Positions 11,505 to 57,325 of a DNA stretch of 64,000 nucleotides are shown in pieces. The translations under genes were made by a program, and so were the position numbers. The stretch is from Elusimicrobiota bacterium. GTDB lineage: Bacteria > Elusimicrobiota > Elusimicrobia > Elusimicrobiales > UBA9959. Each line of letters begins with the position of its first letter. The first letter of the stretch is position 1. The stretch is taken from contig JAGVVD010000011.1 of NCBI GenBank assembly GCA_019135865.1, forward strand, positions 124,001 to 188,000, written 5' to 3'. Below the pieces are notes generated by a model. The model worked only from the letters and a program-made list of their open reading frames with translations. It was not told the origin of the DNA and searched no databases.

Positions 11505-12765
11505 GAGCGAAATAGCCCTCGCCGCCCTGTCGGCGCTCTGGTTCCCGGTCCTGTTCCTGTGCCGGCTGGGCCGCGCCGCCGTCCCGCTCGCGGCGGCGGC
11601 CGGGGCCGGGCTTTTCTGGCTCGCCCTGCCCGCGGCCGTTTCGACGGGGGCGGCGGCATTGACCGCCCTCTGGGCGGCGGCCGCCTGCCGGTGGGTCCTC
11701 GCGCGCCGCTCCGGGAGCGCCGCCGGCGGAGCCGCGCGGGAGGGAGGAGCGGAGAGGCTGGGGGAAGTGGCGGAACGGCTGGCGCTGGCCAAAAAGGAGT
11801 TCAACGAGGCCGGCGGCCGCGAGAAGAAGGTGCTGCTGCTCTATTCGGCCATGAAATACCTGGCCGAGGCCGTCGACCAGCAGGCCGCCGGGCGCCAGTT
11901 CGCCCGCTACATAAGCGATTACTTCGGCACCGAGGATTTCGCCTTCTACCTGCTGGGCCCGGCCGGCGAGGCGGAACTTTTCGCCTGCGGCCGCGACACC
12001 GCCTCCGATTTCAATTCGCCCGAAGGCCTCCGGCGCGCCGCCGGGCTGCCCGGCAAAGGTCCGCCCGAGCCTTTCGCCGCGGACGGTAAGCCGCCCAGGG
12101 CCGGCGTCATGGTCAACCACGCCGGCGAGGCGGTCGGGTTCTTCGCCGCCGCCTTCCCCGGTTCGTCCGCGTCCGCGGCGGAACTGGCCGCCGCCATGCT
12201 CTCCTTCGCCGAGGAGCTCGCTTTCGCCGTGCGCCGCCTGCGCCTGTTCCGGGAGGTCGAATGGCTCTCGCGCGTCGACGGCCTGACCGGCGTCTTCCGC
12301 CGCGGCGTGCTGGACGAGCGCATCGAGGAGGAGGTCCGCCGCGCGCAGGCCTTCCGCACCACTTTCGCCGTACTCATAGCCGACATCGACCATTTCAAGC
12401 GCCTCAACGACGGCTACGGCCACCAGTTCGGCGACTTCGTGCTCAAGCGGGTGGGCACCCTGCTGCGCGAGAGCGTCTACGAGACCGACTTCGTCGCCCG
12501 TTACGGCGGGGAGGAGTTCGCGGTGGTCCTGCCGCGCGCGGAGCCGGAGGGCGTCCTGCGCAAGGCCGAGGCGATACGCGCCCGCATAGCGGCCGAGAAT
12601 TTTTCGCACGGACTTGAAAGTGTTAGAATAAGCGTGTCCATAGGCGTGGCCCATTTCCCGCGGGACGGCCGCGACGCCGCCGGAGCCGTGGCCGCCGCGG
12701 ACGCGGCGCTCTACCGCGCCAAGGAGAGCGGCCGCAACAGGGTGGTGGACGCCAGCCAGCTTTGA
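11497..12765 (+). CDS. Second membrane diguanylate cyclase (GGDEF)
   Basis: 422 residues, start codon inside the end of the previous cyclase gene. Two or three hydrophobic segments occupy ~5-65, a GAF-like sensor region ~110-250, and the GGDEF domain ~260-422. Catalytic GGEEF is at residues 337-341, with ADIDHFKRLNDGYGHQFGD before it. The I-site position reads YETD instead of RxxD, so product inhibition is probably lost, unlike its neighbour. The two proteins share architecture (TM, sensor, GGDEF) and look like an ancient tandem duplication. It likely makes c-di-GMP at the inner membrane under a different signal. Confidence 0.88.
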   Translation: MPESEIALAALSALWFPVLFLCRLGRAAVPLAAAAGAGLFWLALPAAVSTGAAALTALWAAAACRWVLARRSGSAAGGAAREGGAERLGEVAERLALAKKEFNEAGGREKKVLLLYSAMKYLAEAVDQQAAGRQFARYISDYFGTEDFAFYLLGPAGEAELFACGRDTASDFNSPEGLRRAAGLPGKGPPEPFAADGKPPRAGVMVNHAGEAVGFFAAAFPGSSASAAELAAAMLSFAEELAFAVRRLRLFREVEWLSRVDGLTGVFRRGVLDERIEEEVRRAQAFRTTFAVLIADIDHFKRLNDGYGHQFGDFVLKRVGTLLRESVYETDFVARYGGEEFAVVLPRAEPEGVLRKAEAIRARIAAENFSHGLESVRISVSIGVAHFPRDGRDAAGAVAAADAALYRAKESGRNRVVDASQL

Positions 12766-18770: not shown

Positions 18771-18842
18771 GCGCCCGTGGTGAAATGGATATCACAGGAG
18801 CCTCCGAAGCTTCTAGTGCAGGTTCGATTCCTGCCGGGCGCA
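18771..18842 (+). tRNA. tRNA-Arg(CCG)
   Basis: Full cloverleaf. Acceptor GCGCCCG/CGGGCGC, D stem GTGA/TCAC, anticodon stem GGAGC/GCTTC with loop CTCCGAA (anticodon CCG, reads CGG). The variable loop has four bases, the T arm is GCAGG-TTCGATT-CCTGC, and the discriminator is A. CCA is not encoded (AATTAG follows). Its last 17 bases (GATTCCTGCCGGGCGCA) are the start of a 161-bp tandem repeat that continues downstream. Confidence 0.95.
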
Positions 18843-19176
18843 ATTAGTTCTTAGCAGTCGACCGGAGCGGGCCGCGGTGCGGCCTGTGTCAGGAATCGAA
18901 AGCCGGAGCCGCGAGGCCAGCCGGCCGCAGCGGCGAGGCGGGGTCGCGGGTCCCGAGGAGCGGCGGCGACGAGGGAACCCGTGACCGATTCCTGCCGGGC
19001 GCAATTAGTTCTTTGCAATCGACCGGAGCGGGCCGCGGTGCGGCCCGCGTCAGGAATCGAAAGCCGGAGCCGCGAGGCCGGCAGGCCGCAGCGGCGAGGC
19101 GGGGTCGCGGGTCCCGAGGAGCGGCGGCGACGAGGGAACCCGTGACCGATTCCTGCCGGGCGCAATTAGTTCTTTG
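18826..19176 (+). repeat. 161-bp tandem repeat seeded by the tRNA-Arg 3' end
   Basis: Unit 1 is 18826-18986, unit 2 is 18987-19147, and a partial third unit is 19148-19176. Each unit opens with the last 17 bases of the tRNA (T-arm 3' part plus acceptor and discriminator) followed by AATTAGTTCTT. The two full units differ at only a few positions. Mid-unit each carries CAGGAATCGA (18890-18899, 19051-19060), the inverted T-arm sequence. No convincing gene lies inside; the open frames on the minus strand are antisense to tRNA sequence. Confidence 0.9.
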
Positions 19177-56170: not shown

Positions 56171-56199
56171 TTGACAAGTCAACGTCCGCCTGTTATAGT
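56171..56199 (+). promoter_or_regulatory. Near-consensus sigma-70 promoter of the non-coding unit
   Basis: TTGACA (56171-56176), exactly 17 bases, then TATAGT (56194-56199) preceded by TGT (extended -10). It is the best promoter in the window and no gene follows it before two terminators. Confidence 0.85.
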
Positions 56200-56205
56200 C
56201 TATCT

Positions 56206-56540
56206 GCGGTCCTGATCTTTGAGACAGTTTCGGTGCGCCGGTTCGGTGGTTGCGGTCGCGGTCTCGGTTGCGGTCGGCTCGGGGGTGGCCCCGGCCCCGG
56301 CGCGGTTCCCCGGCTCCGCCTTCGGTGTTCGCGGCGGCTCCCCCCGGGGCGCCCGGTCCCCGTCCCGCCCCCTCGGGCGCGCGGTCCCCGGGCCTGCGGT
56401 CCGGCTGCGGTGTCGGTGCGGTGTGTTCCCGCGGTCGTGGTCCTCGGTAGCGGTCGTGGTGCGGTTGCGGTCGCCGGTCCGCCTGTGCGGTGTGTTCCGA
56501 GTAGAGAGCCCCCGTCGTCCTGACGGGGGCCCTCTTTTTT
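56206..56540 (+). ncRNA. Candidate non-coding RNA with a 222-nt adenine-free run
   Basis: Expected transcript from ~56206 to the terminator ending at 56540 (~335 nt). Positions 56227-56448 contain no A, and only one A (56449) occurs in 56227-56499. The body is made of short G/C/U words: GTGCGGTGTGTTCC at 56416-56429 and 56485-56498, GCGGTCGTGGT at 56431-56441 and 56450-56460, CGGTTGCGGTCG twice. It lacks the signatures of tmRNA, RNase P RNA, 6S and SRP RNA. Frames are open only because stop codons need A. I infer a structured RNA; function unknown. Confidence 0.6.
56504..56540 (+). terminator. Strong Rho-independent terminator of the ncRNA unit
   Basis: CCCCCGTC, loop GTCCT, GACGGGGG extended by GAGAG/CCCTC pairing, then TTTTTT. 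Confidence 0.92.
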
Positions 56541-56554
56541 ACGGCTTTAGCCGG

Positions 56555-56593
56555 AAAAAAAGAGCCCAGGCGTTCACTGGGCCCTCTTTTTTT
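56555..56593. terminator. Bidirectional terminator, serves the DUF481 gene
   Basis: A-run, GAGCCCAG, 7-base loop, CTGGGC(C)CTC, T-run. On the minus strand it lies 19 bases after the DUF481 stop. Confidence 0.88.
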
Positions 56594-56611
56594 ATACCCG
56601 CGATCCGGGTC

Positions 56612-57325
56612 TTAGTAGTTGATTATCAGCGAGACGCCGGTGATGGTGTCCTTGCGCCTGAACCCGGCGCCCGGCTTGTTGACCATTTTCCAGACATACG
56701 ACGCCTTCATCGACATGTGCGAATTGATCGACGCCACCAGCGCGGTCTCGGCGTTGATGCGGTAGCCCGACGAGTCCTTCAGGTTGCCCAGCCATTCCAG
56801 GTCCTGCGCGGCGTGCGCGGTGGGGGAGAGCTTGCGCTGGTATTTCATGTAGCCGCGGTAGGTGCCGAAGTCCTCGTTCTTCGAGGTGATGCGGTCCTCC
56901 CAGATATAACCGCCGCCGGCTTCCAGCGAGAGTTTGTCGTTCTCCTTGTCTATCAGGTTGCGCCCGAGACCGAGACCCAGGTCCCAGCGGTCCTGGATAT
57001 TGGCGAAGCGGTTCTTTTCCCAGCCCAGCCGCTCGAAGGCGTAGTTCTTGCCGGAGAACTTCAGGCTCACCTTCTCGTGGGCGTTGAACTGCTCGGCGGT
57101 GGTGGTGCCCTCGCTGTTGGTGCCCAGGCCCCCGGCCGCCAGCTCCAGCGCGGCCCTGGTCCAGTCGTAATTGAACAGGTTCTTGGCCGAGAGCGTGGAG
57201 TTCTTGGAATTGCCCGTCGTCTTCACGTAGGACAGTTCCGCCGTGTCCTTCCACGGCTTGGCCTCGTCGGCCGCCGCCGCCGGCAGCGCCGCCGCTAAGA
57301 ACAGGATAGTCGCAAGTGTTTTCAT
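56612..57325 (-). CDS. DUF481 outer-membrane protein
   Basis: 237 residues, CCGGAGGA before the ATG. Signal peptide MKTLATILFLAAALPAAAA. The mature protein is the DUF481 (YdiY-like) barrel: AELSYVKTTGNSKNSTLSAKNLFNYDWTR at the start (the family's G-N-[ST] strand), then WDLGLGLGRNLID, LSLEAGGGYIWED, ALVASINSHMSMKASYVWK and a C-terminal strand ending in Tyr. These proteins sit in the outer membrane; some are induced by salt or acid. Specific role unknown. Confidence 0.88.
   Translation of the reverse strand: MKTLATILFLAAALPAAAADEAKPWKDTAELSYVKTTGNSKNSTLSAKNLFNYDWTRAALELAAGGLGTNSEGTTTAEQFNAHEKVSLKFSGKNYAFERLGWEKNRFANIQDRWDLGLGLGRNLIDKENDKLSLEAGGGYIWEDRITSKNEDFGTYRGYMKYQRKLSPTAHAAQDLEWLGNLKDSSGYRINAETALVASINSHMSMKASYVWKMVNKPGAGFRRKDTITGVSLIINY

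Follow-up and report, generated by a model that had tools for sequence, protein, structure and literature searches.

A family of boxA-led, adenine-poor predicted RNA genes in Elusimicrobia, including a member with a 222-nt adenine-free run

The window analysed here, a 64-kb stretch of an Elusimicrobiota genome, contains a locus at which a near-consensus sigma-70 promoter (TTGACA-17-TATAGT with a TG extension, 56171–56199; 11 of 12 consensus matches) and an intrinsic terminator enclose DNA that is almost devoid of adenine (Table 1). There is no A in the 222 nt from 56227 to 56448, and a lone A at 56449 is followed by another 50 A-free nucleotides (56450–56499). Run, promoter and terminator had all been described in an earlier, sequence-only reading of this DNA, and all three hold, the run by letter count. 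The word GCGGT occurs 14 times in 56206–56538, GTGCGGTGTGTTCC and GCGGTCGTGGT also recur, as that reading had stated, and hexamers form tandem arrays at 56248–56276 and 56431–56473. The bases directly 5′ of the locus are A-rich, which indicates that the A-poverty tracks the transcript and not the region. Because the next downstream gene, which encodes a DUF481 protein, is convergent, the locus cannot be read as an mRNA leader. Elsewhere in the window, a tandem 161-bp repeat (18825–19176; 2.2 copies, 96% match) overlaps the 3′ end of a tRNA gene (18771–18842).

Table 1. Features of the predicted RNA gene, in window coordinates.
Feature	Position	Strand	Basis
−35 hexamer inside the inverted repeat TTGAC-AA-GTCAA, a candidate operator	56171..56182	+	(Nearly) invariant in 56 non-redundant copies
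−10 hexamer TATAGT with TG extension	56194..56199	+	Sequence; family conservation
Predicted noncoding transcript, ~335 nt, start site inferred	56206..56540	+	Promoter and terminator positions; homologues
boxA-like antitermination motif TGATCTTTGAGA	56213..56224	+	Same motif in rrn leaders of own and related genomes; near-invariant in family
Body with a single A (56449)	56227..56499	+	Letter count
P1 helix, 5′ arm GCGCCGG	56235..56241	+	Pairs with 56297–56303; compensated variants in relatives by eye
Hairpin CGGGG-GUGG-CCCCG inside P1	56280..56293	+	Sequence reading
P1 helix, 3′ arm CCGGCGC	56297..56303	+	Partner of 56235–56241
P3 hairpin CGCCC-CCUC-GGGCG	56366..56379	+	Relatives have the homologous hairpin, with compensating changes
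Predicted stem, 5′ arm (GCGGUCCGGC), closing a large GCGGU-rich loop	56396..56405	+	Partner 56473–56482
Predicted stem, 3′ arm (GCCGGUCCGC), same GCGGU-rich-loop stem	56473..56482	+	Partner 56396–56405
Intrinsic terminator GAGCCCCCG..CGGGGGCCCUCUUUUUU	56506..56540	+	Stem 56508–56530, then T6; kept in relatives

Adenine makes up 16.9% of the window, and the probability of 222 letters without it, (1 − A)^222, is 1.6 × 10−18 per start position. Across 60 simulated 64-kb sequences (order-5 Markov), the longest A-free run averaged 62 nt and reached at most 95 nt, which bears out the claim that such a run should practically never arise by chance. The 16S rRNA of the same genome is 25% A and its A-free runs are all ≤18 nt. 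Coding DNA can hold long A-free runs, yet not of 222 nt; a 129-nt run lies at 11515–11643 of the window, within what looks from its sequence like the gene of a hydrophobic membrane protein. A-free DNA offers no stop codon in any plus-strand frame, and frames are open at 56219–57298 and 56233–56523, as an unrecognised protein gene would have them; however, the longest frame does not stop at the terminator but continues into the convergent gene for the DUF481 protein, same-genus copies differ by single-base and non-triplet indels and have no common start, and the copies of relatives contain A. No conserved reading frame was found at the locus, and we regard a protein gene as exceedingly improbable.

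Two congeneric genomes carry the unit 3′ of the orthologous gene (93–95% protein identity), and its promoter, leader, body and terminator match those of the window copy. These copies have a few more A (longest A-free runs, 169 and 94 nt), and GCGGT-type repeat units have been gained or lost among the three, as expected from the proposal that the run grew by repeat expansion. At the nucleotide level, a search recovered homologues from further genera of the same Elusimicrobia family (best E = 2 × 10−22, others weaker). The copies that we read have one architecture (CTTGACAAGTCAA-N7-CTGTTATACT, TGTAGTCYTGATCTTT, a GC-rich body and GAAGAGCCCCCG..CGGGGGCTCTC-T(n)), and all extracted copies have a near-invariant promoter (TTGACAAGTCAA-N11-TATACT) and the terminator GAGCCCCC..GGGGG. 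The window copy has an TTGACAAGTCAA-N11-TATANT promoter, the boxA leader, an A-poor body and the same GAGCCCCC..GGGGG terminator. The 69 distinct full copies measure 274–627 nt from the −35 hexamer (median 416 nt including the promoter; transcripts of about 240–600 nt) and contain 2.1–11.4% A (mean 6.8%) and 18.9–31.1% T, with longest A-free runs of 31–222 nt. The family as a whole tends to be A-poor, with the window copy at the extreme, and absolute A-freeness is no conserved rule; of the suggestion that selection maintains an A-less RNA, the family data support selection for low A content but not for a strict absence of A.

The alternative that the stretch is low-complexity filler, left by hexamer slippage within GC-rich intergenic DNA under a biased mutation spectrum, would account for the tandem hexamer arrays and for indels among the three same-genus copies that often equal repeat units. 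Against it, four more genera keep the unit together, its promoter, leader and terminator near-invariant and its hairpins compensated, and A-poverty is confined to the transcript; we consider this alternative very unlikely. Of the unconserved, A-containing filler for which relatives were checked, only the presence of A was found; the unit itself is conserved. That promoter, leader, body and terminator are kept together in other genera, in several copies per genome, strongly supports the earlier proposal of a noncoding RNA gene.

Genera that carry the RNA family have 1–5 copies per genome. Scanning 84,980 species genomes for the promoter–leader pattern returned 67 loci, and all of the named ones are in Elusimicrobia metagenome-assembled genomes. 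A single IMG/VR match (L232) proved to be a phage-like promoter with GTCAA repeats from which the RNA element is absent. A 3′-domain covariance model (R1) from which the genus of the window (g1) was left out matches 38 of the 59 genomes of the Elusimicrobia family, at most 5 times in any one genome, and nothing outside that family among 295 genomes sampled from the phylum. Within the window it finds the terminator only (17.5 bits, E = 0.054), indicating that the 3′ domain is divergent or replaced there. Genus g1 is a divergent branch whose links to the rest of the family are the promoter, the leader, the P1 domain, P3 and the terminator. The nearest protein neighbours of the family copies represent 80 clusters out of 126, and synteny is local, between close relatives only; the NERD-helicase context described for the window thus recurs locally, and other neighbours are found elsewhere. 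As the neighbours are not conserved, the RNA probably acts in trans.

Several helices are predicted to be family features. For P3, P4 and P6, pairing in cis beats all 300 arm swaps (z = 8.0, 5.4 and 4.8, respectively, with relatedness left in by the swaps). The P3 arms occur as CCGCCC/GGGCGG, UCUGCU/GGCAGG, CCCCAC/GUGGGG and UCGCU/GGCGA, and those of P4 and P6 as UGGC/GCCA and CGGC/GCCG; because differing complementary words occupy the same place, these variants are compensating changes. P1 variants identified by eye (GCGCCGG/CCGGCGC, GCGUCGG/CCGACGC, GCUCCGG/CCGGAGC and GAGCCUG/CAGGCUC) follow the same pattern, and the arm permutation is without power for this helix because the best of many arms always pair in GC-rich sequence. 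Hairpin P5 and the stem outside it (arm-swap z = 0.5 and −1.1) are not counted as family helices. RNAalifold on the global alignment, which was misregistered, recovered little beyond the terminator, and a column-pair scan was likewise fruitless. The predicted fold of the window copy is less stable than those of all 100 shuffles (z = +2.1; family mean z = −0.9), and the unpaired bases in predicted folds are 46% U and less than 10% A.

The best-conserved transcribed element, among 56 copies, is the boxA-like leader: TG(A/C/T)TCTYT(N)AA stands at the transcript start in nearly all of them. The rrn leaders contain the boxA-like sequences TGATCTTTTAAA, TTGCTCTCTAAA and TTGCTCTCTAAAA, such motifs occur in nearly all genomes with a readable leader, and the variants in the RNA family are those of the rrn boxA of the same bacteria. 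The Elusimicrobia leader motifs match the published gamma-proteobacterial consensus GYTCTTTAANA (PMC5725501), and NusB is encoded in the genome of the window (PF01029, E = 1.2 × 10−29). Along other untranslated arrays, the addition of boxA leads to higher transcript levels (PMC7862264). Elusimicrobia rRNA operon leaders often have two boxA-like motifs, ~470–620 and 260 nt 5′ of the 16S gene (L094, L238–L256). The conservation of boxA and its match to the rrn motif would also suit an RNA that works through boxA itself, by titrating NusB/NusE or joining ribosome biogenesis; however, the long conserved body and the terminator, which make up most of the gene, would then be superfluous, and the other RNAs with the same promoter lack boxA, making such a role unlikely.

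The inverted repeat at the −35 hexamer is common to other RNAs. We found 8 exact TTGACAAGTCAA sites in the 2.95-Mb genome, compared with 1 and 1 for reversed-pattern controls at ≤1 mismatch. Four of the eight lie 5′ of noncoding RNAs: the window RNA; a GCGGT/GCAGT-repeat RNA that neighbours a dinB-like gene; a short GAGGGAGGC RNA, followed by a TPR gene; and a short RNA with a hairpin, followed by a glutamate formimidoyltransferase-like gene. Others lie 5′ of genes for membrane or secreted proteins; all gene names here were assigned by eye. These sites may reflect a common regulator or merely a strong promoter class. The boxA leader, the promoter palindrome common to other RNAs and the multi-copy family all go beyond the sequence-only reading.

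Other elements with this promoter type were also observed. The repeat RNA beside the dinB-like gene, a second RNA-like gene of the window's genus with the same TTGACAAGTCAA promoter, has a long GCGGT/GCAGT/GTAGT hexamer array between GC hairpins and a terminator, and occurs in four g1 genomes (L097, L116, L120, L122; in the window's own genome at G000:C30:87530, minus strand). The short conserved RNA GAGGGAGGC ... GGGAGCRCGAAA..CTTTTCGTGCTCCC-T lies directly 5′ of a TPR-protein gene at 7 of 7 loci read, in at least four genera (L095, L110, L113, L114, L118, L125, L126). A conserved 5′ leader with an CCCTGAAC...GTGTCAGGG-type stem and the same palindrome precedes the gene of a membrane-anchored uncharacterised protein (L096, L099, L112, L119, L128), and a short leader or RNA with the same promoter and a terminator-like hairpin, AAACCCGC..GCGGGTTTT, precedes glutamate formimidoyltransferase-like, acetate-kinase-like and other genes (L098, L105, L109, L129, L130).

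Across the family copies, GCGGT is found 404 times against 94–99 expected (about 4-fold) and TGCGGT 164 times against 17 (ten-fold), and the complements are scarce (GCCGC, 19 versus 98 expected; GCCGT, 15 versus 92; ACCGC, 0 versus 8). A thermodynamic model gives GCGGU a slight excess of openness (0.27 versus 0.23 in shuffles). Two uses of these sites were weighed. As a base-pairing regulator, the RNA would direct (U)GCGGU(U) seeds at ACCGC/GCCGC in mRNAs or at the 5′ strand of helix 45 (AACCGUA) of 16S rRNA; the 4–10-fold enrichment of GCGGT, TGCGGT and GCGGTT, together with the depletion of self-complements, would leave the seeds free for targets, whereas the many repeat variants in relatives (UCUGGU, UUCGGU, GUGUGGU) argue against it. 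As a sponge or scaffold, the RNA would offer the repeats to a protein. We tentatively favour the sponge or scaffold, with seed pairing, which we regard as somewhat doubtful, a close second.

We propose that this locus belongs, as a single-copy member, to a multi-copy family of Elusimicrobia RNA genes that are independent, structured and untranslated. Transcription would start from a strong sigma-70-type promoter shortly 5′ of boxA, with the −35 hexamer in an inverted repeat that other RNAs share, as do some genes for secreted or membrane proteins. NusB/NusE would then load at boxA and let polymerase cross ~300–500 nt of untranslated RNA without Rho termination, up to the strong terminator, as in rRNA operons. 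The RNA would fold into several GC hairpins, its depletion of A removing Shine–Dalgarno sequences, AUG and long U–A pairing. Avoidance of A would achieve all three together, as suits an RNA meant to be untranslated and open. Finally, its many (U)GCGGU sites would let the RNA serve in trans as the sponge or scaffold of an RNA-binding protein. The initiation and folding steps, taken as properties of an RNA family, are very probable from the sequence comparisons; boxA antitermination, by analogy with known boxA biology, is quite likely; and the account up to and including folding is, overall, likely. The last step is possible at best. More speculatively, these may be parts of a new post-transcriptional system in which boxA-transcribed, nearly A-free RNAs sequester a putative GCGGU-binding protein while ribosomes and self-pairing are kept off GCGGU, with two such RNAs in the window's genus under one operator-promoter.

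The use of boxA by noncoding RNAs outside rRNA has been pointed out as a gap (PMC5725501), and the RNA family, which adds such a use, touches it. In the window, Rfam 15 at the gathering threshold detects tRNA only, and at E ≤ 1 the related loci yield three sub-threshold chance matches, none of them credible; literature searches of incomplete coverage on Elusimicrobia noncoding RNA and adenine-free RNA returned nothing relevant. The boxA-led, A-poor family is thus previously unlisted, being absent from Rfam and from any paper found. Kept across a bacterial family at as many as five copies per genome, and equipped with an rRNA-type antitermination signal, the RNA is probably abundant and important. 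Natural structured RNAs normally depend on unpaired A, which makes the near-total avoidance of this base unusual and opens a testable question: can base choice be selected so that an RNA escapes both ribosomes and pairing with itself?

Among known systems, 6S RNA is a stand-alone noncoding RNA of ~180 nt that forms one bulged hairpin; the RNA described here also stands alone but is not a single hairpin of this kind and has no Rfam match to 6S RNA. OLE, ROOL and GOLLD are large bacterial structured RNAs, long and conserved, with roles that are unknown or scaffold-like, and the new family resembles them as a long conserved structured noncoding RNA but is A-poor and has no Rfam match to them. With CsrB/CsrC/RsmZ (PMC7652899) it has in common independent intergenic genes, several copies, a short repeated motif in varying number and a common upstream regulatory site; it differs in its GCGGU rather than GGA motif, its much larger closed-stem body and its boxA. 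A CsrB-type sponge, which would carry numerous GGA motifs in its hairpin loops, was rejected, as the elements have 0–4 GGA each (56 copies), none is possible in the A-free stretch, and the window's own genome has no CsrA/RsmA (no PF02599 match). Like rRNA operon leaders and the boxA-bearing leaders of CRISPR arrays (PMC7862264), the unit combines a strong promoter and a host-type rrn boxA with a long untranslated structured RNA; unlike them, it is a separate gene of 250–600 nt that ends in a terminator of its own and has a body poor in A and rich in GCGGU.
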